A DNA stretch of 34,047 bases from a virus: the IMG/VR virus record IMGVR_UViG_3300021076_000018, positions 1 through 34,047 of that record; one strand, 5' to 3'. Every line of letters begins with the position of its first letter. Positions within the stretch are counted from its first letter, which is position 1. The notes beneath the pieces were generated by a model. That model saw only the letters and a program-made list of their open reading frames with translations, had not been told where the DNA came from and made no database searches. Positions 2,283 to 32,048 of this stretch are shown piece after piece. A program made the translations under genes and the position numbers.

Positions 2283-2420
2283 CATCCTCCCCGCCCTAAA
2301 GGACGGAGATTCCTACAACTAGCCTGTCATGTCCGACAGGGGATCTGAACTTTTTAAGAATATTTTTAGCGGCATTCACATCACGATCATGTTCACATCC
2401 ACATTCCGAACAAGTCCAAT
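2281..2420 (-). ncRNA. Candidate omega RNA (reRNA) at the tnpB 3' end
   Basis: In IS605-family elements the guide RNA for TnpB overlaps the 3' end of tnpB and the right end of the element. Here the minus strand reads through the tnpB stop at 2296 into CCGTCC-TTTA-GGGCGG at 2306-2291, then GGAGGATGTCAA up to the border. The guide would come from the flank, about 2279 downwards, inside the neighbouring gene. The 5' limit is not visible and is only a guess. Confidence 0.45.
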
Positions 2421-3363
2421 TCCTTATTCCAAGGTCTGCGATACCTTTCGGCCTCGAATCGGGCAGAGCGCCGCAATCCGAACAGACTTGGGAGGTAAAT
2501 CTTTCGTTCACTTCTTCAAACCATGCGCCATGCTTAACAGCCTTGTACGCCAGTTGTGTTCGGAAGGACGACCAACCCGCATCGAGTACGGACTTCGCCA
2601 TGTTGGTCTTGGCGAGTCCGGCGGCATTGACATTGCCGACCGCGATATAGTCAAACTCTTGAACGATGCGCGTCGAGAGTTTGTGGTGAAAATCGTTTCG
2701 TTGATTCTTGATCTTGGCGTGAATCGACGTAACGCGGCGCTTCTTATTCGCCCTTTGCGCAACGGCCAGCGATTTCTCTTCGCCCCGGTAGATGCGCTGC
2801 GCCTCGATCTTCTCGCCAGTAGACAACGTGGCGAAGTCCTTCAGGCCAAGGTCGATGCCGACGCCGCGCACTGGTTGGCGAACGCTGGTGGCATCAACAA
2901 CCACATCAATCACGATGTTCAGGAACCAATTGCCGCGCGAGTCTTGGGAGAAATTCGTGCCGTCTTTGATCTTACCTTCCGGCAGGGCGCGACTGTTAAA
3001 CACACGGAAGGTGTTTCCAGCAAACCGGAAGGCATCGCCTTCGCGCTTCAACTCGCGGCCCTTGAGCGGCACCCAACCAAGGTTCTTCTTGCCACGGTAA
3101 CGCAGGTACGGGCGTTTCTTCTGCGCTCGCGACTTGGCATATTGCTCGCAAACAGCATTGATAGTGCCGGAGTGCAAGCCAAGTTCTTTGCTGCTGCCAG
3201 CGGTGAGCTTGTTCAGATCAAAGCCGGTATGCCAGCGCCGACCGAATCGCAAAGCATCTTTTTGCCTATCGTTACAAAAATTGAACACGTAATTTACTGC
3301 ACGCGCCTGCTTATTCAGCAAGCCGTTCAGAGATTTTACGCGGTAACGATAGACAAGGATCAT
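2296..3363 (-). CDS. tnpB: TnpB RNA-guided endonuclease, rearranged RuvC site
   Basis: A 355-residue TnpB. The RuvC-I aspartate is at about D171 in GVGIDLGLKDF. A zinc finger has C294, C297, C318 and C321. The last aspartate is in HDRDVNAAKNIL near D328. The usual RuvC-II glutamate position (xxEDLN) reads AVGNVNAAGL, with glycine at 243. Glutamates instead occur at 283-287 in FEEVNERFTSQ, matching described TnpB groups with a relocated catalytic glutamate, so the protein may be active. The ATG overlaps the stop of the ribbon-helix-helix gene (ATGA), suggesting coupled translation. The family cuts DNA under omega-RNA guidance and helps retain the element. Confidence 0.9.
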   Translation of the reverse strand: MILVYRYRVKSLNGLLNKQARAVNYVFNFCNDRQKDALRFGRRWHTGFDLNKLTAGSSKELGLHSGTINAVCEQYAKSRAQKKRPYLRYRGKKNLGWVPLKGRELKREGDAFRFAGNTFRVFNSRALPEGKIKDGTNFSQDSRGNWFLNIVIDVVVDATSVRQPVRGVGIDLGLKDFATLSTGEKIEAQRIYRGEEKSLAVAQRANKKRRVTSIHAKIKNQRNDFHHKLSTRIVQEFDYIAVGNVNAAGLAKTNMAKSVLDAGWSSFRTQLAYKAVKHGAWFEEVNERFTSQVCSDCGALPDSRPKGIADLGIRNWTCSECGCEHDRDVNAAKNILKKFRSPVGHDRLVVGISVL

Positions 3364-20025: not shown

Positions 20026-21622
20026 TTAAATCTTGTCAGGAACACGAACGGCCCATTCCGGCCGCAGCAAGTGATAGCCGTACAGCACATCAAGACGAGT
20101 GATGAATTGATCCGTCTGGACATTGTAGGCCGTGATAATACGCAACGACGTATTATCGTAGACTTCGCGATATGCCTCATGGACGCCTTTTGGCAACTCC
20201 AAATCGGCAGTAACCATCGTAACGGCCTCCGGAACATAAGCCACGTTCATCCGGTATTGAGCCGCGGAATTAAAGTCGAACGTGATTTGTGCGCCGTTGA
20301 TCGGAGACGTGGTAACTGTCTGATATTGAACTGTCGAACCGCCGACAGGTGGAGTCAATGCCGGATAGATGGACAATGAAGTTGCGTTTGTCGCAGCAGC
20401 CGCAGTCACAACAAAGCGTTGCAACGATGCAGAGGTCTGTTTGGTAACGCGATTTACCGCATATACTCCGGCAATCGTGAAGGTATCGCCAGCAACGACA
20501 GGACCAGAAAGCGCCGATATCGTCAAAGTTGTACCTGTCTGACTACCGCCGCTCACGGTCGGATTGGTTACATAAGTACCAGTTGTGTGTGAAAGCGTGG
20601 TTTGATCCATCATCCAGTCGAAACCAAGCGCATTTTTCATCTGGCCAGTCATGTACTGATCAGATAACCCTGACGCCGGGTTAAACAACCCTGCCAAGCT
20701 GCCAACGATACGAGCTTGCGTGATCGGGTCAAGCAATATCTTGCGACGACCACCAGGTGCCGAGTTTTGATCCAGAACAGCGCCGGCGCCCAAGAATGTA
20801 TTGATATCCGGAGACAGAACATTGTTCGCACCATCAAACTTCGCCGAAAGACCGGAGCAAGGAGTTTGGTTATCAGTATAAAGCGTTTGCGACGGAATCA
20901 AACCATCGAATGCGCCCATAATGTCGGCCGCTATTTGGCCTGCGGTATTATTGATCGCAGGCATAAGAACACGTTCAGAGTAGTCATCAATCGACAGAGA
21001 GCGTTCTGCACTCGAAAATTGAATATCTACACCAACTTGATTAGCCATGACAAGACTAATCTTGGTTTCGTTCGTGCCTTGAACCGAAGCAGCAGGACCG
21101 CGACGGACTGTGAAGTCATTCGGCAAGCGGATACGCAAGCTGGAACCTATTTTAGCTCCAGAACGCGCAAAGTCAGCGTCATACTGACGATCGATTGATT
21201 TCAAGAAAGCATTGCTATTCTTAAAAAGACGCACCTTTTGTTCGCTCTGAGTCGCTATTTCAGAACCGTCCTTTCGGACTGCTGCATGTTTCCATGCAGA
21301 GCAGACTATCTCATAACCCCGAAGGGTTCAATGCACTTCGGATCGCTTGATCCTACGACCTTGCGGTCTAGTCGTTACACCTTTTCTGATGTGGACAAAC
21401 GCCTCCATTGAGATGTTTTCCAACATTGCAGTTTCTGCATTTCAGAACTTGGCTCGGTATTGTCATGATATTGTTATGATATGATTTTTGATTCTACATC
21501 ATAACAATATTTTAGAGTTCCACCGAATTCACACTGTTTTCATTCAGAGTTTCCTCTGAAAGGCGCAATTTTGTCTACGCCTCACGAGTTATCATATCAA
21601 TCGTGAGAATCTGATTACTCAT
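20026..21622 (-). CDS. P22-type major coat protein, interrupted by a group I intron
   Basis: Exon 1 is 21577-21622 (AGGAG ribosome-binding site, ATG at 21622; SNQILTIDMITREA plus one base). Exon 2 is 20026-21233. Joining them across the intron creates a leucine codon (T+TG) and gives 417 residues running ...ITREALRLFKNSNAFLKS. This replaces an unspliced reading that ends at TAG after 15 codons. The body (GAKIGSSLRIRLPNDFTVRR, then SIDDYSERVLMPAINNTAGQ) matches P22 gp5-type coats. An inserted beta segment (GDTFTIAGVYAVNRVTK) recalls the P22 I-domain region. It follows the scaffold gene with its ribosome-binding site inside the scaffold stop. Confidence 0.93.
21234..21576 (-). ncRNA. Group I intron (IA-like), 343 nt, without an ORF
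   Basis: Elements seen on the minus strand. P1: exon AGGCGU (21582-21577) pairs with GCGCCU (21566-21561), ending in the conserved U.G at the 5' splice site. P2: TCAGAG-GAAA-CTCTGA (21559-21544). P4: UUCGGU with ACCGAG. P5: extended by a 13-bp inverted repeat (21498-21510 with 21468-21480). P7: GACTA (21373-21369) with TAGTC (21308-21304). P7.1/P7.2-like hairpins, and P3 as CAGUGU with GCAUUG. P8: AACCC-UUCG-GGGUU (21328-21315). P9 and P9.1 have GAAA loops (21299-21282, 21279-21268). The last base is G (omega G), and only that junction restores the coat frame. Confidence 0.93.
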
Positions 21623-21627
21623 AATAT

Positions 21628-22425
21628 CTATCTCCTAATCGGCGCATCCCGATTTCGACGCTCCATGAAGGAATCCAAAGATGCCCTCGATAAATCATCG
21701 TTCGCTCCGACACCATTGATTTGTGTGATAGGTGCAGGCGCTCGGGATACAGGTTTCGTGGATGGCTTACCTAATGTTGAGTTAATCTCAGCCATTCTGA
21801 TAGCCAACTGTACAGGTGGAAGGTTCATGAGTTCGTTTGCCAGATCGAGATTACTTCCCAAGTGATGCAGTACACGATGTCCGTTGTCGAGAACGGTTGC
21901 CGCCTGAATAAATTCAGGTTTTACCTCTCCCAACATGCCGATTTGAGCTAACGCAGTATCGAAGGATAAACCTTCCCCACCTGTGAACTCTTTTTTTCCG
22001 GCTGAATACACTTTATTACACGCATCGTTGTAGGCCGTTTGTTGAGTTTGCTCCAAGGCTATTTGCTGAGCGCGCTCTTCAATGGTTCTTTCAATGTCAG
22101 GTGTACTTTGTGTCCGTGTTTCTTGAGTCGTTCCGGCACGAGCAGCGGCTAGATCAGCCTCTAATCGTGCAACATCTCGTTGTCTTGCTTCCTCTGCCGC
22201 CTTCCTCTCGCGTGTCAATTCGTTGATGCGATGTTGATACCACGGGGTTTTAGCCGGTTTTACCGGTTGTTCCGTATTTCCTGCATCTTCGTTTGCCTGC
22301 GAGGTCTGCTCAGTGCCGATTTCCGAGCTGTTTTCTGGCAATGCCTTCTGTTCCTGATTTTCATCAGACGTCGAGTTCACGCTTTCCTGTCCGGTTTCCT
22401 GGACTGATATTTCTTCACCTGCCAT
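21628..22425 (-). CDS. Scaffolding protein
   Basis: A 265-residue acidic N-terminal, helical protein. It has a central coiled-coil region (INELTRERKAAEEARQRDVA) and a short basic C-terminus (ASLDSFMERRNRDAPIRR). The PVSRAPAPITQINGVGA linker before that tail is typical of P22-type podovirus scaffolds. In P22 the C-terminal basic helix-turn-helix binds coat protein and directs procapsid assembly. It lies directly before the coat gene, whose ribosome-binding site overlaps the TAG. A similar tail occurs in three small proteins at 29930-31000. Confidence 0.85.
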   Translation of the reverse strand: MAGEEISVQETGQESVNSTSDENQEQKALPENSSEIGTEQTSQANEDAGNTEQPVKPAKTPWYQHRINELTRERKAAEEARQRDVARLEADLAAARAGTTQETRTQSTPDIERTIEERAQQIALEQTQQTAYNDACNKVYSAGKKEFTGGEGLSFDTALAQIGMLGEVKPEFIQAATVLDNGHRVLHHLGSNLDLANELMNLPPVQLAIRMAEINSTLGKPSTKPVSRAPAPITQINGVGANDDLSRASLDSFMERRNRDAPIRR

Positions 22426-22466
22426 GATTGAACTCCATCAAGTAAATTTACACGGTGTTCGCGCCG

Positions 22467-23177
22467 CTACGCTGCTGCTTGTTCCAAATATTGCCGATCT
22501 GATTCCTGAATCTTCTTGATCAAGTATTTCTCGAAATTGCCTTCCCATTTCTTCACGCCGATATGACTGCAAGTCATTGTGCGATCGACATAAATTGGGT
22601 ATCCGAGATCCTTCAGTTTATTGCAGACAATGTTGTCCTCACTTACCAGATCACCATTGACAATCTTAATGTCAAAAACCATGCGAGATTCGCGACCTTC
22701 ATTGCGATATACTTCGCTGATATTCCACAAATCCTGCAAGGCTTTTTTCGACAATCGAAGCATTCCAGTTCCAATACCATCAACAGGAATTAAGCCGTTT
22801 GTCGGATAATCCCACGTGTAGGGAGTTCCGAACTGCGCAATGTTATTGATTCGCACATTGTAGATTTCCTGTGCATCCGTCTTTTTAGGAACTGGCGCGC
22901 CGACAACATCAACTGGATGATCCAACATCCTAAATAGGCTTTCTGGTTTCCATCCCTGGTCAGAATCGATAAAAACCAAATCATCGAAATCGTTCTCAAT
23001 CGCCAATTTCACAATGTCATTGCGCGCTCTCTGTACCAGGGAGTCATAGGCCATGTAGACAACTTGCAAATCGATGTCCATCTTTAGCGCCAACCTGATG
23101 GAATTATTCAAGCTGTCGTTATACCAGACATCGGTTTTGCCGTCGTAACATGGCGTACCGATTAATACGCGGCGCAT
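22467..23177 (-). CDS. GT-A type glycosyltransferase
   Basis: A 236-residue glycosyltransferase-like protein. It has RRVLIGTPCYDGKTD at the N-terminus, YDSLVQRARNDIVKLAI, the metal-binding FIDSDQGW (DxD-type motif near residue 73), GIGTGMLRLSK, and SEDNIVCNKLKDLGYPIYVD with CSHIG later. Together these are the marks of a nucleotide-sugar transferase of the GT-A fold. The gene overlaps the fibre stop by one base and lies between fibre and scaffold, so it may glycosylate a virion protein. The acceptor is unknown. Confidence 0.8.
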   Translation of the reverse strand: MRRVLIGTPCYDGKTDVWYNDSLNNSIRLALKMDIDLQVVYMAYDSLVQRARNDIVKLAIENDFDDLVFIDSDQGWKPESLFRMLDHPVDVVGAPVPKKTDAQEIYNVRINNIAQFGTPYTWDYPTNGLIPVDGIGTGMLRLSKKALQDLWNISEVYRNEGRESRMVFDIKIVNGDLVSEDNIVCNKLKDLGYPIYVDRTMTCSHIGVKKWEGNFEKYLIKKIQESDRQYLEQAAA

Positions 23178-25672
23178 CAGTTCATCCTTTTCAATGCATT
23201 AACTTCCTTCGACAAGTCTTGAATTGCTTGCACCATGAACGGAATCAGACGACCGTATGTCATTTCCAATTGCTCTGGATTTTCATCGTTGACCAATCGC
23301 GCCCACTTGATGCCGTATTTTTCGACAATCGGTTGTACTTCTTGTGCGACAAATCCGACTTCGTATTGAACGCCTGCTTTCGATCCGTCGCGTTCTCCAC
23401 CTTCATACCAGCGGCGCATGTCCCATTTGAACCCAACGGGGCGCAGATCATTGATCAGAGACAGACCAACAGGCAAGCTACGCAAAGCTGTTTTATCGCG
23501 CAGATCAGAATATCCGGTGATCGAGGTGACCTGACAACGTAGTGCGGACACTGAAGTATTGCCAAGATCAATTTCATTCTGAGCGCCCGCGGCAGATGCT
23601 TGCGCACCGTATCCGATACATGTGACATTCGTTCCGGTCGTCAAGTTTGAACCTGCATTAACACCTACCGCAGTGTTTTGAATGCCGGTCGTTACAGATC
23701 CTAGCGCAGAGTTAGCTGCTGTGGCATGTCCACCAACTGCAGTATTGTCTGTGCCGGTTGTGCAAACGCTCAATGCCTGAGTGCCGATTGCAGTATTGCG
23801 GACGCCGACAGTGTTGATGACTAGAGCATTTGTTCCGACGACGGTATTTGCATCGCCCGTAGTCAGTGCCGCGCCAGCTTTATAGCCAACAGCCGTATTG
23901 TTAATTGTCGAAACCGCTGCGGCTAGAGAGGATGATCCAACAGCTGTATTGTTGATGCCGGTTGTCAATGCCACGCCGGCGGATGATCCAACGCAAGTAT
24001 TGTCGTTACCGGTCGTCAATGCTGTAAGCGAAATATTACCGATGCCAGTATTTCGTGTTCCAATTGTCGAAACCAAAAGAGATTCATATCCGACTGCGGT
24101 ATTCGAATCGCCGGTCGTCAAAGCGTGTCCAGCTTCGTAACCGACAGCGACGTTTTGTACCGTCGAAACTGCCGCCGACAAAGAACCAGATCCAACTGCA
24201 GTATTGGTAATACCTGTCGTCAACGCAGCACCTGCGTTATAACCAATGCAGGTATTATCGTTACCAGTGGTCAGCAAAGTAGCCGATAAAGTTCCAACTG
24301 CCGTGTTACGTGCACCGATCGTCGATGTGATTAAAGCATTCGTGCCGACAATCGTATTATTGTCACCGGTCGTCAGCGCATAGCCTGCTTTGTAACCTAC
24401 AGCGGTGTTACCTACTGTCGAAACTGCTGCATGCAAAGCCTGAGAACCAACCGCCGTCATATTCACGCCGGTAGTCGCCGCAGTCAATGCGAGATGCCCG
24501 ACAGCTACACAATCATTGCCAGTAGTAGAAGCCGTTAGAGCAGCATTGCCAAATGCCGTATTACGCGCTCCAACTGTGCTTGTTAGCAGGGCATTAGTTC
24601 CTACTGCCGTATTCTGATCGCCAGTGGTAATGGCGTTTCCTGCCGCATATCCGACCATCGTGTTAGCAATAGTGGAAACCGCCGTCGCTAACGCGGTCGA
24701 TCCTATTGCCGTATTTTGCACGCCGGTAGTCAGAGCAGTACCTGCGTTATAGCCTACAGTCGTGCAATCATTGCCGGTAGTGGATGCTTTTTGAGATCCG
24801 GAGCCAATTGATGTATTTCTTGCGCCAACCGTATTAACGAGCAATGAATTGGTTCCGACGGCGGTATTGTTGTCGCCCGTAGTGTCAGCATTCAAAGCCT
24901 TAAATCCGATAGCCGTATTGGCAACCGTAGAAACAGCAGATTGCAACGCGCCAGAGCCTACTGCGGTATTATCAATTGCAGTCGTCAATGCAGTGCCTGC
25001 ATTATAGCCAATCAGCGTATTATCATTTCCGCTCGTAGCTGCTACGCCGGAAAGAGAACCGATCGCTGTGTTACGAACGCCGCTTACCAAATTTGTCAGT
25101 GACGTATAACCAACAGCCGTATTGTTCGCGCCGGTCGTATCGCTTGCCAAAGCCAATCCACCAATTGCAACAAGATTTGCGCCAGTCGTCAAAGCACCTA
25201 GAGCGCCGTTACCTACCGCCGCATTCGTGCCTGTCTGAACAATACCAGTCCCAGTGATTACGTTGAAAGCGGTGATTGTAACGGCGACAGGATTTGCAAC
25301 CGATGTGCAAAGTACCTGCATCGTCACAGATTTAGATGCTGCGCAAGTCGAAACACCAGCCAAAGTGATCCCCGTACCAGCCGCGAACGTGGCCGTATAA
25401 GAACTGTTGTTGTTATAGGTGAAATAAAAACCTTGCCCTGCACCGATCAGCCCGACTTTCGCGAGAATATTCTGTGCCGTGTCGGTAGTGTCTACGAATG
25501 CTCCGGTAGGTCCGCTTCGATTTACCACGCCACCAACAATTCCAGCGGCCGTAATCGTTCCGGCACCAACTGTCGTAATATTTGTGCTTGCCATGTTTTG
25601 ACAAAATGTCGTCGCTGCTACCTGCCCTTGCACTGGTAGGTTATCAATTTCTACGCCAAGATAATTGGACAT
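23177..25672 (-). CDS. Repeat-rich tail fibre with C-terminal S74-type chaperone domain
   Basis: An 831-residue protein. Residues about 214-638 are five 85-residue super-repeats, each built of five units of the type NTAVGxxAxxxLTTGDx, recalling trimeric adhesin head repeats. The C-terminus from about residue 722 (SDLRDKTALRSL, then GFVAQEVQPIVEKYG) is a peptidase S74-like intramolecular chaperone. Its Ser722/Lys727 would form the cleavage dyad that releases the domain after trimerisation. TAAGGAG precedes the ATG. It follows the portal gene. The role inferred is receptor binding or a head fibre. Confidence 0.85.
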   Translation of the reverse strand: MSNYLGVEIDNLPVQGQVAATTFCQNMASTNITTVGAGTITAAGIVGGVVNRSGPTGAFVDTTDTAQNILAKVGLIGAGQGFYFTYNNNSSYTATFAAGTGITLAGVSTCAASKSVTMQVLCTSVANPVAVTITAFNVITGTGIVQTGTNAAVGNGALGALTTGANLVAIGGLALASDTTGANNTAVGYTSLTNLVSGVRNTAIGSLSGVAATSGNDNTLIGYNAGTALTTAIDNTAVGSGALQSAVSTVANTAIGFKALNADTTGDNNTAVGTNSLLVNTVGARNTSIGSGSQKASTTGNDCTTVGYNAGTALTTGVQNTAIGSTALATAVSTIANTMVGYAAGNAITTGDQNTAVGTNALLTSTVGARNTAFGNAALTASTTGNDCVAVGHLALTAATTGVNMTAVGSQALHAAVSTVGNTAVGYKAGYALTTGDNNTIVGTNALITSTIGARNTAVGTLSATLLTTGNDNTCIGYNAGAALTTGITNTAVGSGSLSAAVSTVQNVAVGYEAGHALTTGDSNTAVGYESLLVSTIGTRNTGIGNISLTALTTGNDNTCVGSSAGVALTTGINNTAVGSSSLAAAVSTINNTAVGYKAGAALTTGDANTVVGTNALVINTVGVRNTAIGTQALSVCTTGTDNTAVGGHATAANSALGSVTTGIQNTAVGVNAGSNLTTGTNVTCIGYGAQASAAGAQNEIDLGNTSVSALRCQVTSITGYSDLRDKTALRSLPVGLSLINDLRPVGFKWDMRRWYEGGERDGSKAGVQYEVGFVAQEVQPIVEKYGIKWARLVNDENPEQLEMTYGRLIPFMVQAIQDLSKEVNALKRMN
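23759..25033 (-). repeat. Five 255-bp tandem super-repeats in the fibre gene
   Basis: Each 85-residue copy opens with (S/T)GND, then NTAVG-type units of about 17 residues at fixed spacing, including an AVST unit, a TTGD unit and a VGAR-NTA unit. The five copies keep the exact 85-residue period while differing in sequence, so they are old duplications. Recombination between copies could change fibre length. Confidence 0.85.
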
Positions 25673-25682
25673 GCTTTACTCC

Positions 25683-27863
25683 TTATTGGATTGGTCCTGC
25701 TGGCGCAGGTTGATTTGGTGTTGCAGGTTGTCCCTGTGAGCCATTCACGGCTCCAGCGGATGTTTGTTGATTCTGTAAAGATTGCATTACTGCTAATGTA
25801 ATATCATGCACCGCTTGATGTTGATCCATTGCCGATTCATGGAGAAATTGAGCACGTTCCGTCTGTGCACGGAACACATCGGCACCGGCCTTTATCATCG
25901 TTGCATCATCTTTGTTTTTGTATTTCAGCAATTGATCAGACAATGTTTTAATGACCTGATCCATTTGTTGCAAGTGCTGTTGCAACTGCTGTACTTGCGG
26001 ATTCGGACCGTCATCAAGCAATTGAGGCGGCACGGTACGATGAAGTCGTTCGGCAATCTCTTGCGCCATCGGAAAATCTGCTGCTTTAAATAGCAGATCT
26101 CCGCACTCGTCCATCAACTTCGGATTGTTTTCCATAATCTGAGACATGGCCGCAAAAGCTTCTTGACGACGTGTCGCGTATGCTGGACCGACGTCGCAAA
26201 CAACATCGTAACGTCCGATCTTAGGATTCAGAATTTCTTTGACTTCTTGTGTCATGCCAATCTGTTTCTTTTGGTGTGATTGCGGCGCGGTAGGATCTAC
26301 ATGTATGAAGTCCTCTACGCCATCCTCGCCCAAAATGCGCATCATGCGTGGAGTATCGATTACGTGCGGCATCAAATCGACGATCTGCACCCCAGTAAAA
26401 CGAATAGCTAAAGCTAAATGATCAATATAGTGATAAGTCGCATTATCGCCCTGGCGCTGTCTTTGCGTGATCGCAACGCCGGAAGTTTCATTCGATTGCT
26501 GACCCATGACAGCCTGATATTGGCCTGAAACCATCATCATTTCACTGGCCGCGATCTTCATCCCTTCGACATATGCCGATGCCATTTGCGGAGGCGGTTC
26601 GCGCTGCGGACGCTGAATAGGATCGCCATTGTCGTCTTTCCCGTTATATGGCAAATAGGAATAATTGGTAAGATGCTGAGTATCCCAATATTGTTGATAT
26701 CCTTCAAACGCCTGCGCTTCGCCGACATATGGAGTTTTAGTCTGCAATGATGCCTGCTCAGTCGCTGAGCTAGACCAATAGTTATACATGCGCTGAGGGT
26801 CTTTAAGAGCGCGTGTATGGCCTTTTCGCTCCAACTTACCGTCAATGATCATTTCCTCGCCGACCACTCGGACGATCGGTATATAACGGCCAGGCCAAGG
26901 GCGACGATCTATTATCTTGTCGCCGGCAATCAAGAACCATTCGACTTTATCGGTATCAACCTTGCGCAATTGGATCATTTCGGGATTTTGTTTGGCCGCT
27001 GACTTGACCATATCCCAAATTTGCGGATCAACTTCATCCTCGATAACGACATTCGACTTGACTACATTCTCAAACAGCGGCATCAATTCAGCATCAATCG
27101 AAGCAATCTCTCGCTGTTTCGGCTTTTTCCTGAAATATTCGCATACTCGAATATGATCTTTTCCTTGCCACATTCCGCCTTGAGAAAGCGTAAAGGTTGC
27201 GGCAGCAACTTCCTCAGTTCCATATTTGCGCTCGAACTCTTTTTTTGTATAGTCTACAAAGATAAAACCAAACTTCGCATCCGAGCCATTAACTTCCTTT
27301 ATATCTGGATCAATATAGACGGTTAATGGATCTTTAATCCGACGAATAAAAATATCTTGGTCAAACGATTTATCGCTTGCATACTCAGTAGTGATTCTCC
27401 AATACCCGATGCCAGCAAATACCGCGAACTCTTCAGCCGTGTTATAAACGCTCTGAGCATGCGATGCGTATTCAACGTGTCGCACATAACCATCGATTAA
27501 TTTTGCCGATTCTACGGTCGCTCCAGAGTCAATTGGACGCACTTTTGCTTGCGGAGGATGCTGGCGAGAGTCATTGACTATCTGAAGGCAATGCTGCTTG
27601 GTCTTATTGATTGTCAAGCATGGACGGTCGTCAATCTCGCGATTATTACGAGTCGTATCCGGCCATTGGAACATGTTGTCAGAGTCGCCATTAACAAAGC
27701 GCAAATCATCAATAAAAAGCTTCCGAAAATCAGCCTCCCAATTGACGCACAACTCGAAATTGTCTTTGGCCTCTTGAACGATTTTATCGTCCGAAGTGGA
27801 ATCTCCCTTCTTGCCAGGGATGGCGGCCAAGTCTATCGAATCGTTTTTGCTCTTTCTAGCCAT
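25683..27863 (-). CDS. Portal protein (P22 gp1-like)
   Basis: A 726-residue protein, nearly the length of P22 portal (725). Segments seen are DLRFVNGDSDNMFQWPDTTR, DDRPCLTINKTKQHCLQIVN, FEERKYGT-type middle parts, YWSSSATEQASLQTKTPYVG and SGQYQAVMGQQSNETSGVAI. These are typical of P22-like portals. The C-terminal 130 residues form a long glutamine-rich helix (the barrel or crown region). It makes the dodecameric ring used for packaging and ejection. It overlaps the preceding small gene by 8 bases. Confidence 0.92.
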   Translation of the reverse strand: MARKSKNDSIDLAAIPGKKGDSTSDDKIVQEAKDNFELCVNWEADFRKLFIDDLRFVNGDSDNMFQWPDTTRNNREIDDRPCLTINKTKQHCLQIVNDSRQHPPQAKVRPIDSGATVESAKLIDGYVRHVEYASHAQSVYNTAEEFAVFAGIGYWRITTEYASDKSFDQDIFIRRIKDPLTVYIDPDIKEVNGSDAKFGFIFVDYTKKEFERKYGTEEVAAATFTLSQGGMWQGKDHIRVCEYFRKKPKQREIASIDAELMPLFENVVKSNVVIEDEVDPQIWDMVKSAAKQNPEMIQLRKVDTDKVEWFLIAGDKIIDRRPWPGRYIPIVRVVGEEMIIDGKLERKGHTRALKDPQRMYNYWSSSATEQASLQTKTPYVGEAQAFEGYQQYWDTQHLTNYSYLPYNGKDDNGDPIQRPQREPPPQMASAYVEGMKIAASEMMMVSGQYQAVMGQQSNETSGVAITQRQRQGDNATYHYIDHLALAIRFTGVQIVDLMPHVIDTPRMMRILGEDGVEDFIHVDPTAPQSHQKKQIGMTQEVKEILNPKIGRYDVVCDVGPAYATRRQEAFAAMSQIMENNPKLMDECGDLLFKAADFPMAQEIAERLHRTVPPQLLDDGPNPQVQQLQQHLQQMDQVIKTLSDQLLKYKNKDDATMIKAGADVFRAQTERAQFLHESAMDQHQAVHDITLAVMQSLQNQQTSAGAVNGSQGQPATPNQPAPAGPIQ

Positions 27864-28029
27864 TCATTCCACCACTACCAATTTTCTCTTTTGCATGTTC
27901 CAAGCTCTGCACCATTGCCCACAGCAATTGAGCAACCGCGTTCATATTTCCGTGTTGCAGTTCGATAAGTCTTTCCAGCGCTTTATCGCATTGTGCTTTC
28001 GCTGCAATCTTCTTTTCTACTGTGCCCAT
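27856..28029 (-). CDS. Small helical protein between terminase and portal
   Basis: A 57-residue helical protein (GTVEKKIAAKAQCDKALERL, then NAVAQLLWAMVQSLEHAKEK). The ATG at 28029 shares a base with the terminase TAA. The 3' end overlaps the portal start. There are no membrane segments. Function unknown. The tight overlaps on both sides support its being real. Confidence 0.65.
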   Translation of the reverse strand: MGTVEKKIAAKAQCDKALERLIELQHGNMNAVAQLLWAMVQSLEHAKEKIGSGGMNG

Positions 28030-29384
28030 TACCGCCCCATCCATTGAGAGCTACCAATCGTAGCTGGACCACGCTCAGGTTTCTTCATCTCGAATTTAGG
28101 TTTGTTGCGATCCTTAACGAGTCCGGGGAATATCTCACTCATTCCCCAAATCATCGCGTCTGCACGGTTAGGGCTTCGGTCTCCCAAATATCCCATCGTG
28201 GAAAATGCACATAGCTCATCTTCCAACTCTTGAAAAATGCCGACGTGGCGTATTTTGCCAACGTCGGCTAAGGCCGCAATCGGATCTGCCCGAACTGCTT
28301 TGCCACGTGAAGCCGTTACCATTTTAAAAGGAGTATTCGGGCGCGATGTCTGAATCACGTGCTTTACCATCGCACCACCATAATTTATTTCACCGACTAC
28401 GATATCGGCTTGGTGTCGGTCATAAGCCGCGGTTACTACATTACCCCAGGTAGACGGACCTGCTGTAAGAGTCAAGTCCTCCAACACATAACCGATTCCA
28501 TCAGTTCCGAGCGCAACAACGACAATCCCGATCGCATCAGCAGTCGAATTTTCATCGGCAGCACCGGAAGGATCAACTGAAATAATTACTCTCAGAAAAT
28601 CCGGCAATTCCTGTCCATCAACAACGCGCCATTTATCAATTTCGCTATCTGACCAAAGCGCATTAGGTGTTGCGTCGGCAAATTCTCCACGCAGGAATCG
28701 ACGTTGTAATCGCGCAGATTGCGATTTAAGAGTATCCAAATATCCTGCAGCAAGGTTGATAGCATTGCTTTCAGGATTGATCTGCATCGATACATAATCT
28801 TCGGGTCGCGGAAGATTCACACGTGTTTCAGGATCGCGTCGCTCGATGAAAATTCGATATGTCCAATGCACTTTTGATGTCGGGTTGCAATCATAAAACA
28901 TGCGTGGGATCATCGGTTTTTCCCTGCCATCAACGTTCTGCATGACCTTTTGAGCCAGACGAGTGACAGCAATATCTCTTGATGCGAGAGGAATCTGGCT
29001 ACATTCGTTCAAATAAATTGTGCTGAACTCTTGACCAAGAATCTTCTCCGTGCGTTCCTTGTCGTCCAACCCACCAAACCAAATTTGCGATCCGTTTCGA
29101 AACTCCGCATACCAATCTGTTTTATTTATCACGTATTCCGTATTAGGGAAACAAAGACGCATTACTTTTGGGAACGTGTCTTGAATAATCGAATTTTTAA
29201 CGTGATTAAATCGAAACCGCAAAATCGCATGACGACTTTTTGATGCTTTCAAAGCTCTTGCTATTACCGATCTTGTCAAAATGAATGTTTTTCCAGATCG
29301 TGCGCCACCCCAAAGCATGCCGTGCGTTGCCGTTCCGGATAGGAGCGACAATGCTTCGTGCTGCTTTGAGGTTAGCTCTAGCAT
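28029..29384 (-). CDS. Terminase large subunit
   Basis: A 451-residue packaging ATPase/nuclease. Walker A is GGARSGKT near residues 26-33, and Walker B is STIYLNECSQI (acidic E near 127). A motif III-like region follows in the ATPase half. The nuclease half starts at RVIISVDPSGAADENSTADA with an acidic residue, then DIVVGEINYGGAMVKHVI and ADAMIWGMSE. It drives DNA translocation into the procapsid and cuts the concatemer. It is transcribed just before the small helical protein and portal, in P22 order. Confidence 0.93.
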   Translation of the reverse strand: MLELTSKQHEALSLLSGTATHGMLWGGARSGKTFILTRSVIARALKASKSRHAILRFRFNHVKNSIIQDTFPKVMRLCFPNTEYVINKTDWYAEFRNGSQIWFGGLDDKERTEKILGQEFSTIYLNECSQIPLASRDIAVTRLAQKVMQNVDGREKPMIPRMFYDCNPTSKVHWTYRIFIERRDPETRVNLPRPEDYVSMQINPESNAINLAAGYLDTLKSQSARLQRRFLRGEFADATPNALWSDSEIDKWRVVDGQELPDFLRVIISVDPSGAADENSTADAIGIVVVALGTDGIGYVLEDLTLTAGPSTWGNVVTAAYDRHQADIVVGEINYGGAMVKHVIQTSRPNTPFKMVTASRGKAVRADPIAALADVGKIRHVGIFQELEDELCAFSTMGYLGDRSPNRADAMIWGMSEIFPGLVKDRNKPKFEMKKPERGPATIGSSQWMGR

Positions 29385-29385
29385 G

Positions 29386-29871
29386 TTAGCTGTAGTTCAG
29401 TTTTGGAGCGCTGACCAGAATCACCGGCGATGCGCCTGCGGTCTGAACAGCAAATTCCACTGTGTCAATATATCCAGCAGTGGTGGACAGCGTGCAAGCT
29501 CCGCCAACACGCAGGAAGATGGTCCCGGCTCCTGTCAAGGTTAGAGTGCGTGAACCAGTACCGTCCTGCGTGAACTGAACTACCCATTTTTGGCCAGCAA
29601 TTAGGTTTGTTGGCGTGGAAAATGTAACGTTGGCAGTCAGCGTTCCGAGGATTACCAATGAGTTATTGATCTGTGCGGCATTCAGGACAACCGTTGCCGA
29701 GAATGGAACCGATACTGTGGGAGGGGCGAATTGCGCCATGTTTTGAGTTGTTACATACTCATCTTGTGGAAATACACCACTCCCCAAATTAGTGCTGCAA
29801 GGAAAACGTTCATTGCCAGTGAGGGGCAATGTCACTGCCGGCATGTCGCCGTTCCCATCGAAGTATCCCAT
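29386..29871 (-). CDS. Beta-rich probable virion protein upstream of terminase
   Basis: A 161-residue protein with alternating hydrophobic residues (TVVLNAAQINNSLVILGTLT, then GQKWVVQFTQDGTGSRTLTL). It probably forms a beta sandwich or helix-like domain. From memory, similar Gly/Thr-rich domains occur in phage tail or decoration proteins. The CTAGGAG ribosome-binding site lies before the ATG, and the stop is one base from the terminase start. Function unknown. Confidence 0.6.
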   Translation of the reverse strand: MGYFDGNGDMPAVTLPLTGNERFPCSTNLGSGVFPQDEYVTTQNMAQFAPPTVSVPFSATVVLNAAQINNSLVILGTLTANVTFSTPTNLIAGQKWVVQFTQDGTGSRTLTLTGAGTIFLRVGGACTLSTTAGYIDTVEFAVQTAGASPVILVSAPKLNYS

Positions 29872-29929
29872 TTTTATTTCTCCTAGTTAATATGCCGACA
29901 ATCGGCGTTAAGTTACGATCATCGACGTC

Positions 29930-30187
29930 TTACTTTTTACCAGTCTTGTCACGTCGCGCTACAAAACTGTTCATTGATTCTTTTTTCTTTCCTTCGCCTA
30001 ATACTTTATTTGCCTTGGCATCAATCTTTGACTTCTCTCCATCAGATAGCTTGCCCTTTTCCTCCATCTGCGTTGCACGAGCCTTAGCGTTGGCTGCATG
30101 GCTTTTATCCGGCATTGGATAGGCACGCTTACTGGGTTCGCCGAATTCTTTCTTCGGCATCTTGTCGCGTGCTTTTGTGGTTAGCAT
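29930..30187 (-). CDS. Small lysine-rich phage protein with scaffold-like C-terminal tail
   Basis: An 85-residue, very basic protein. The front has KARDKMPKKEFGEPSKRAYP and PDKSHAANAKARATQ, a pattern conserved in small phage proteins near terminase genes. The tail ESMNSFVARRDKTGKK resembles the scaffold C-terminus. A GTG at 30196 overlapping the previous stop is an alternative start to the ATG at 30187. Function unknown; entry into the procapsid through the tail is suggested. Confidence 0.7.
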   Translation of the reverse strand: MLTTKARDKMPKKEFGEPSKRAYPMPDKSHAANAKARATQMEEKGKLSDGEKSKIDAKANKVLGEGKKKESMNSFVARRDKTGKK

Positions 30188-30192
30188 CACGG

Positions 30193-30462
30193 TCACTTAT
30201 AGGTTTTCTTTGTCTTTTCGCGCTTTGCTACCCACTGATCCATGCGCGAACCTTTTGGCTCAACCGGCGAAACCTTTGGCTTCTTTGACATCATTCCCGC
30301 ATCCTTGACACCAGATTTTAATGGTTTTGCATCGACTCCAGCTGCGGCTCCACCGCGTCCACCGGAATTGCCGATTCTCGTCGTATCCTTTCCGCCGTTT
30401 TTGTCGGTTGACTTCATTTTCTTTATTTCGCCATCGATCGGCTTACCCGTTTCCATCTTCAT
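30193..30462 (-). CDS. Small basic disordered protein with scaffold-like C-terminal tail
   Basis: An 89-residue Lys/Gly-rich protein, probably unstructured (RIGNSGGRGGAAAGVDAKPL), ending PKGSRMDQWVAKREKTKK. The ATG at 30462 has AGAGGTGAT upstream and overlaps the end of the preceding gene by 6 bases minus one codon; an earlier in-frame ATG is less well supported. The tail is nearly the same as in the next gene upstream. Function unknown. Confidence 0.65.
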   Translation of the reverse strand: MKMETGKPIDGEIKKMKSTDKNGGKDTTRIGNSGGRGGAAAGVDAKPLKSGVKDAGMMSKKPKVSPVEPKGSRMDQWVAKREKTKKTYK

Positions 30463-30466
30463 CAAA

Positions 30467-31000
30467 TCACCTCTTCGCGGTTTTATTGCGTTTGTCCATC
30501 CATTGATCAAGCCGACTTCCGGAAGGCTTCACTGGCGCTGGTTTTGGCCCCTTGGTTATCATCTTGCCGGTATTTTCTGCGGATTTTTTGATCGGCTTGC
30601 CGTCTTGTTTGTTGGCAGGCGATGTGGTGCTGAAATTGGTTGTTTTCTTCGGAGGAGATTCTTTTGTTGCCGCTTTTGTATCGCTTCCAGGGTTCTTTGT
30701 GGAAACTGCGCCGTCCTTGTCTTTGATCGGCGATTTCGTATCACCAACCATATTTGACTTGTCAGCATCAACCGAGATTTTTTTGGATTTTTCGATCACA
30801 GGAATATTAATTACATGGACTATTGCTGACATTTTCTGTAATTCTGTGTTCGCGTGTTTCTTTGCCGCCTTGTGCCGTTCTTTATCGGCATGGACTTCGG
30901 CGGCCTCCTTTAGCGTCTCCATGTCCCTACGAGCGCGATATTCCTTGCCCTCTTTGGTATCTTCCCATCGCGTTGGCTTCACAGCGATTTCTCCGTTCAT
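30467..31000 (-). CDS. Basic, largely disordered protein with scaffold-like C-terminal tail
   Basis: A 177-residue protein. The first 55 residues are helical and charged (TRWEDTKEGKEYRARRDMET, then VHADKERHKAAKKHANTEL). The rest is a Lys/Ser/Pro/Thr-rich linker. The last residues, SGSRLDQWMDKRNKTAKR, match the scaffold tail pattern. There is no obvious ribosome-binding site at the ATG. An in-frame TAA lies three codons upstream, so the start cannot be much earlier. It is the first gene after the terminator-like hairpin. Confidence 0.65.
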   Translation of the reverse strand: MNGEIAVKPTRWEDTKEGKEYRARRDMETLKEAAEVHADKERHKAAKKHANTELQKMSAIVHVINIPVIEKSKKISVDADKSNMVGDTKSPIKDKDGAVSTKNPGSDTKAATKESPPKKTTNFSTTSPANKQDGKPIKKSAENTGKMITKGPKPAPVKPSGSRLDQWMDKRNKTAKR

Positions 31001-31243: not shown

Positions 31244-31405
31244 TTATTTACAGCAAACGACAATAAAAGCCGCAATCACAATAGCGGTCGGCATGCTCAA
31301 AGGAAATAACATGAAGAACAATCCTAAAGCTGCAAGTACCGGTATCAGAGCCATGATTACGATCAATATGCGTATTCCCGATGGAATGGATTTCCAAAGT
31401 CTCAC
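31244..31405 (-). CDS. Small two-segment membrane protein after TerS
   Basis: A 53-residue protein starting with GTG at 31405, overlapping the small terminase stop (GTGA). After a short basic start (RLWKSIPSGIR) it is almost wholly hydrophobic, with segments ILIVIMALIPVLAALGLFFM and TAIVIAAFIVVCC. It is probably an inner-membrane protein. A holin-like or exclusion function cannot be told apart. The base overlap supports translation. Confidence 0.6.
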   Translation of the reverse strand: MRLWKSIPSGIRILIVIMALIPVLAALGLFFMLFPLSMPTAIVIAAFIVVCCK

Positions 31406-31746
31406 AGGTTTTCATCCACCGGCAAAAGTTGCACAATCAAAGCGCCATCTTTGCCGGACCCCTTGTGCTCAACTTGCGCTAATTTTGGATGTACGTAAGG
31501 CGCTGCGCTTTTTGCGGCATCAAGCCGGATATCATGCGGCAAATCCTTGTTACGCAGCGTTTGGAGAAGATATTCGAGTGGAGTGATACCGGAGGATTGG
31601 ACTGCTTCAATTATCGCCGCAGTGCGCTTGTTTGGCACCCCTGCCTTGCGTCCGGAGCCTGGCCGCTTGCCGCCTTTGGTTGACTTTTCTACTTTATCAA
31701 TCTTTTGGGCAACTTTATTTGTTTGTTTTGCAATAGTGCTATCCAT
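31402..31746 (-). CDS. Probable terminase small subunit
   Basis: A 114-residue protein. A basic N-terminal region contains GGKRPGSGRKAGVPNKRTAA, followed by helical parts ITPLEYLLQTLRN and IRLDAAKSAAPYVHPKLAQ. The GRKxGxPN and PYxHPKLA elements are common in small DNA-binding proteins annotated as phage small terminases. It would recognise the packaging site. The ATG at 31746 has GAGGAA 7 bases upstream; a GTG at 31749 is possible. It follows the GroES-like gene. Confidence 0.75.
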   Translation of the reverse strand: MDSTIAKQTNKVAQKIDKVEKSTKGGKRPGSGRKAGVPNKRTAAIIEAVQSSGITPLEYLLQTLRNKDLPHDIRLDAAKSAAPYVHPKLAQVEHKGSGKDGALIVQLLPVDENL

Positions 31747-31748
31747 CA

Positions 31749-32048
31749 CTATTCCTCGATAATCGCCAGGATATCCTCTTCCCGCATAATCTCTAAAGCA
31801 ACTTTCTCGCCGTCGCTATCGATCACCAAAGGCATCGAAGACTGTTTCATGAATGCAATTTTATCACCTACCTTGACGGATGGTGTGTGAAATATTCCGG
31901 TCATCAGAGGCATTCCAGGACCGACCGCCACTACATCCCCAAACACCAGTCCTTGCGGCGGCTGCCTTGGCATTACAAATCCAGGAATAATACTGTCGGT
32001 CTTAATTTCCCGTACAGCGATGCGGTTCAACAAGGGCTTAACGTTCAT
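31749..32048 (-). CDS. GroES-like cochaperonin
   Basis: A 99-residue protein of the Cpn10 size. NVKPLLNRIAVREIKTDS matches the GroES N-terminal strand. The region TDSIIPGFVMPRQPPQGL corresponds to the mobile loop. GDVVAVGPG, VKVGDKIAF and EIMREEDILAIIE match the core in order. No GroEL is present, so it would cap host GroEL, as T4 gp31 does. Coat proteins of this type fold with chaperonin help, so it probably aids virion assembly. AAGGAT precedes the ATG. Confidence 0.85.
   Translation of the reverse strand: MNVKPLLNRIAVREIKTDSIIPGFVMPRQPPQGLVFGDVVAVGPGMPLMTGIFHTPSVKVGDKIAFMKQSSMPLVIDSDGEKVALEIMREEDILAIIEE

Follow-up and report, generated by a model that had tools for sequence, protein, structure and literature searches.

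The scaffolding protein of a P22-type phage and three small basic proteins encoded by adjacent genes of the same genome (sp1, sp2, and sp3) end in a common motif, [LM]-[DN]-x-[FW]-[MV]-x-[KR]-R-x-[KR]. We favor, as somewhat the more probable account, that a scaffold helix that docks on the coat has been appended to the small proteins, which would be co-assembled into the procapsid and freed there as cargo.

Head module and gene organization

The DNA analyzed is an IMG/VR virus record of 34 kb (34,047 nucleotides; hereafter the window) whose minus strand carries a P22-type head module. This module encodes TerS (31402–31749; phrog_15261 and phrog_641), the terminase large subunit (TerL; 28029–29384; phrog_979, E 1e-61), a P22-type portal (25683–27863; PF16510, E 3e-165), a scaffolding protein of 265 aa with a pI of 4.9 (21628–22425; phrog_8865, head scaffolding protein, E 1.2e-12), and a P22-type coat protein in two exons (20026–21622; PF11651, E 1e-30). 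Between TerS and TerL, on the same strand, lie the adjacent genes of sp1 (30467–30982; 171 aa, pI 10.0), sp2 (30193–30462; 89 aa, pI 10.2), and sp3 (29930–30187; 85 aa, pI about 10; phrog_16160, E 2e-24). Their start codons were judged solely from ribosome-site-like sequence: sp1 probably starts at GTG 30982, just downstream of a GGAGA ribosome site, rather than at ATG 31000; sp2 starts at ATG 30462 rather than TTG 30510, and sp3 at ATG 30187. An earlier note on this DNA had taken 21628–31000 as one feature, but this range separates into the scaffold gene (21628–22425) and the small genes (29930–31000), with the portal, TerL, and other genes in between.

The coat gene consists of the exons 21577–21622 and 20026–21233 (minus strand), which give a reading frame of 417 aa once spliced. 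They are separated by a group I intron of 343 nt at 21234–21576 (minus strand; RF00028, 67.6 bits, E 3e-15 at 21282–21586), which interrupts the conserved codons of the N-arm (REA^LRLFKN) and in which no internal endonuclease was seen. The boundaries of the intron were inferred from P1 pairing and from the uninterrupted coat homolog of a second phage, IMGVR_UViG_642555151_000004 (L208), which the spliced coat matches.

Other parts of the record also deserve mention. A gene for a GroES-like co-chaperonin (MNVKPLLNRIAVREIKTDSIIPG...; 31749–32048, minus strand), identified by reading alone, lies just upstream of TerS, and phages PBR31 and DSL-LC05 likewise have an annotated GroES gene near the terminase. 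A repetitive protein of 831 aa (23177–25672, minus strand), whose C-terminus read by eye resembles an endosialidase chaperone, is encoded between portal and scaffold, an unusual location for a fiber-like gene. The record also encodes a TnpB/IS605 OrfB-like protein of 355 aa (2296–3363, minus strand) with a zinc-finger-like CSDCG...CSECGCEHDRDVNAAKN near its C-terminus, again read by eye, and its first 358 positions are strongly repetitive and of low complexity, with SGVGSGF and another 13-letter peptide in opposite frames.

A shared C-terminal motif

The four tails, all encoded on the minus strand, are SLDSFMERRNRDAPIRR for the scaffold (21631–21681), which is conserved in relatives, SRLDQWMDKRNKTAKR for sp1 (30470–30517), SRMDQWVAKREKTKKTYK for sp2 (30196–30249), and ESMNSFVARRDKTGKK for sp3 (29933–29980); sp2 finally ends in ...KREKTKKTYK. 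The same pattern had been proposed for these four ends in the earlier note, and each is encoded where it was placed. The leading S-x of the proposed pattern holds for sp1 and sp2 (SRLDQW and SRMDQW) but not for the scaffold and sp3, in which S stands directly before L or M (SLDSF and SMNSF). The aromatic residue also differs within the window, being F in the scaffold and sp3 and W in sp1 and sp2. The tail of sp2 may be compared with SMDQWVKWRE in the scaffold of Pseudomonas phage PAE2, and upstream of the sp1 tail stands PKPAPVKPSG, which resembles the PAPIxPxG or APAPIKPxG conserved in an alignment of the scaffold family. The tails of sp1 and sp2 are related to each other (E 1e-8), and therefore the two are not independent events. 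A recent duplication of tail DNA was considered and rejected, because only 11–21 of 33 nt are identical among the tails; evidently, the tails are not recent copies, yet they are maintained at the protein level.

The relatives were sampled by TerL (80) and by pattern (47 loci), and a position-specific scoring matrix (PSSM) was trained on the scaffold tails of the relatives only, with the proteins of the window and of L208 excluded from training. The window's own scaffold tail scores 14.1, against 19.4 for sp1, 14.9 for sp3, and 13.7 for sp2. Scores among scaffolds are circular because the training tails were chosen from matches to related patterns. Against composition-preserving shuffles of each tail (20,000 per tail), the scores of sp1, sp3, and sp2 were reached in 0, 2, and 11 cases, respectively. 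The tail of the L208 sp1 homolog, taken alone, scores modestly (PSSM 7.3; 64 of 20,000 shuffles). Among 9,952 non-scaffold gene-like ORFs, with mechanical gene calls in the compared loci, just eight score at least 13.5, namely sp1, sp2, sp3, the sp3 homolog of L208, one scaffold fragment (L177), and three unrelated proteins that were taken as chance. Two non-scaffold proteins of about 580 aa have high-scoring ends that are probably due to chance (KMSIEEYIMTRLKQG..., PSSM 20.5, L035:2047–3792; KMNVEDYIMTRLKEG..., PSSM 15.2, L022:1522–3282; both minus strand). Likewise, a tail-like ORF of 32 aa inside the group I intron (MLENISMEAF...; 21328–21426, minus strand; score 7.9) was taken as chance.

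A tail-only alignment was too variable to serve as a query for a collection search. A scan of all of IMG/VR for D[EQ]WMxxRNK gave 47 stretches; 21 of the in-frame cases lie at the C-terminus of a scaffold-like protein and three do not (L170, L173, and L190). Five of the proteins (L162, L192, L203, L181, and L207) were confirmed as scaffolds by PHROGs and others by phmmer as scaffold homologs, and those tested match phrog_8865 or phrog_3927. To judge from these sequences, the motif is a hallmark of the scaffold family to which the window's scaffold belongs.

Relation to the coat-binding segment of P22 gp8

A profile of 30 sequences of the scaffold family matches P22 gp8 (8i1v_H, E 8e-14) up to P22 residue 281, and on this evidence the window scaffold is clearly assigned as a homolog of gp8, despite the fact that Pfam PF09306 gives no match to it. 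In a Foldseek search, P22 scaffold structures were the best matches of the scaffold, with a probability of 0.99 but a weak E of 0.02. AlphaFold predicts an isolated C-terminal helix at residues 250–260 after an unstructured linker, with a pLDDT of about 85 over the block. The tail occupies the position of the coat-binding helix-turn-helix of P22 (...DVETYRKLKAKLKGIR; Y292, R293, and K296), of which R293 and K296 bind D14, E15, and E18 of the coat N-arm (PMC9965877). The earlier suggestion that the shared segment is scaffold-like is thus borne out: it corresponds to the helix at the C-terminus of a scaffold of the P22 gp8 type, placed where gp8 binds coat. The tail of P22 itself scores poorly in the PSSM (−3.5), and equivalence with P22 therefore rests on homology and position rather than on identity of the motif. 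The N-arm of the window's coat, MSNQILTIDMITREALRLFKN, retains acidic residues, is nearly identical in L208 and in a further phage, L209, and is where the tails are expected to dock. Homology and position support the putative docking of the scaffold tail on the coat.

The tail as an add-on to small proteins

The scaffold-like helical body is absent from sp1, sp2, and sp3, which share the tail alone and are missed by phmmer with the scaffold as query. sp3 belongs to a common family of small, partly helical phage proteins (phrog_16160) and overshoots the normal end of this family by 16 residues, which are the tail; AlphaFold predicts these as a separate helix (residues 75–85, pLDDT about 65). 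More than 60 sp3 homologs end without the tail, at ...KIDAKANKVLGKKK or at unrelated short ends, and among the listed homologs only those of the window and L208 have it. The tail on sp3 is therefore best described, from these alignments, as a separable add-on to a small basic protein, and it is retained in a second phage.

sp1 is composed of a conserved N-terminal small-protein domain, a K/S/P-rich linker of about 100 aa, and the tail. Homologs of the domain occur in L123, L046, L148, and L208–L211, and in other phages the domain stands alone as a protein of 63–76 aa. No PHROG match was obtained for sp1 or sp2, and the only homology found for sp2 lies in its C-terminal part, which is sp1-like. 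As queries, sp1 and sp2 gave no homolog in IMG/VR, nor did sp1 in INPHARED; when the genome collection was scanned with the sp1 family, a single locus was returned, and the tail is absent there. The description of the three proteins as Lys-rich and disordered suits their low-complexity linkers, but not the conserved, partly helical family of sp3 or the N-terminal domain of sp1.

Recurrence in related phages

L208, found by a search with the sp1 domain, encodes an sp1 homolog ending in GRETMDSFVARREGKKK and an sp3 homolog ending in KKESMEEFADRRNKEEKAKRR, and its scaffold ends in KASLDDFMERRNREAPVKR, which matches the tails of its small proteins. The scaffolds of the two phages are about 48% identical, and their sp1 proteins have linkers of different length and sequence but retain the tails. 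In L208 (12258–13937), the cassette of sp1, sp3, and a 161-aa gene is retained together with the head module of the window, and the large terminase looks to be of another type. The more distant scaffolds of L209 (GKESMEDFVRIRERQ...; GKESMEDF...) and L211 (GKESMDDFARKRAKQ...; GKESMDDF...) have tails of the sp3 type. A KESM-type pattern was found in IMG/VR in the L208 record and the L211 scaffold only, and a scan with an alignment of the window and L208 scaffolds returned the L208 record only.

In a within-genome comparison covering 99 scaffold-bearing loci, the last 22 residues of each scaffold were set against the ends of other genes from its own locus (2,414 genes). The top pair was sp3 of L208 with its own scaffold (52), followed by sp1 of the window (38); sp3 of the window scored 31 and sp1 of L208 26, where the background reaches about 35. 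No other convincing tailed small protein was found in the 99 loci, nor was a further convincing case found in annotated relatives (PAE2, PBR31, P26218, EBPR podovirus 1, DSL-LC05, and others). Tailed small proteins as a general feature of P22-like phages were thus rejected. Because only these two genomes have them and their head modules are related, the tails in the window and L208 may have one evolutionary origin. Evidence for covariation between scaffold and small-protein tails, which the earlier note proposed to look for across related phages, comes from these two related phages only, and the aromatic residue differs even within the window.

In L210 (177–1201), the genes for sp3 and sp1 cluster with that of another small basic protein (MPLKKSSSKKAFSENVRAEVKAG...) upstream of the terminase genes, and all three proteins lack tails; L211 has a protein similar to this third one of L210. 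Thus, the gene cluster as such recurs, and what is new is the tails.

Assembly model and alternative explanations

In the model that we favor, the docking helix of a P22-gp8-type scaffold would have been appended through flexible linkers to sp1, sp2, and sp3 in this lineage. As the head assembles, the tails would attach to the acidic N-arm on the inside of the coat shell, beside the C-termini of the scaffold, and the small proteins would thereby be co-assembled into the procapsid. Remodeling of the N-arm on shell expansion is expected to free the docking site, and the basic proteins would consequently be released into the head, where their positive charge would favor binding to incoming DNA and retention as virion cargo. 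Coat binding by the three tails, encapsidation of the small proteins, their retention in the virion, and a possible part in the next host are all inferences. It is a tentative proposal, for which the chances appear slightly less than even, that the tail is a natural, transferable C-terminal encapsidation tag, copied from the docking helix of the scaffold, on several unrelated small basic proteins that become virion cargo and could coat or condense the packaged DNA or be delivered to the next host.

Alternatively, sp1–sp3 could occupy the scaffold sites on the coat as assembly modulators that affect rate, size, or scaffold exit, acting as minor or competing scaffolds and leaving with the scaffold. 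The tail logic would then be that of SaPI1 CpmB and the 80alpha scaffold, which are bound to coat through a common C-terminal motif of 16 residues (PMC5644958), and proteins this small could exit through pores of the shell as scaffold does. However, the three proteins have unrelated bodies and are very basic (pI about 10), unlike CpmB, and the sp1 and sp3 families lack tails in many phages, which argues for a function of their own other than scaffolding; we consider this explanation unlikely. Retention with DNA is preferred because of the charge and the non-scaffold-like bodies of the proteins. It is less likely still that the tail binds a partner other than coat that is common to the scaffold and the small proteins, such as the portal, the terminase, the scaffold itself, or nucleic acid. 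The basic character of the tails, the position of the small genes next to the terminase genes, and the need of P22 ejection proteins for scaffold during incorporation (PMC8402733) are compatible with such a partner, but the position of the tail equals that of the coat-binding segment of P22, and a conserved aromatic residue in a fixed acid/base pattern exceeds what the shuffles give for a generic basic tail. As for a chance or convergent likeness of K/R-rich C-termini, the motif is short and three unrelated ORFs reach the same PSSM threshold; against this stand three adjacent genes with homologs in a second phage, the rarity of equal scores among the shuffles (0–11 of 20,000), and the absence of the tail from other sp3 homologs, so that this reading is already disfavored and highly improbable.

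Comparison with known systems

The earlier note knew of no description of such tails. In a literature search that includes few subscription papers, we found no description of a phage in which natural copies of a scaffold tail are carried by its own proteins other than the scaffold, but SaPI1 CpmB, engineered P22 scaffold fusions, and the targeting signals of T4 and P1 are precedents for the principle. If correct, the model would provide a minimal tag, some 16 residues long, with which P22-like shells could be loaded, a rule at the sequence level (scaffold tail equals cargo tail) by which hidden head proteins may be found in phage genomes, and a first functional hint for phrog_16160 and the N-terminal family of sp1, both of unknown function.

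CpmB of SaPI1 and the scaffold of 80alpha have a common C-terminal coat-binding motif (the RIIK helix-and-hook), whose partner in 80alpha is for the most part the N-arm of the coat (PMC5644958). As in the window, a small protein carries the short coat-binding element of the scaffold C-terminus, although the motif here is not RIIK. CpmB is a competing satellite scaffold that resizes capsids, whereas the tails described here belong to several unrelated basic proteins that the phage itself encodes, and the window, which has its own TerL, portal, scaffold, and coat, is unlike a satellite. Short peptides also direct phage proteins into the head in the case of the capsid targeting sequence of T4 internal proteins and of P1 DarB, of which residues 1–30 suffice to send a reporter into the head; these signals of T4 and P1 are N-terminal (PMC9024508) and are not described as copies of a scaffold coat-binding element, in contrast to the C-terminal element of the window. 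Similarly, the P22 ejection proteins gp7, gp16, and gp20 are non-scaffold proteins whose entry into the procapsid depends on the scaffold (PMC8402733), but gp7 and gp20 assemble through N-terminal parts, and a scaffold-like tail has not been described for them. In engineered P22 virus-like particles, foreign proteins fused to gp8 residues 141–303 or 239–303 are encapsidated (PMC9962691), and the scaffold C-terminus thus serves as an encapsidation tag on other proteins. That system is man-made and uses a larger piece of the scaffold, whereas the putative tags of the window are natural and comprise about 16 residues; if the model holds, they would represent a natural equivalent of P22 cargo loading by engineered fusions.
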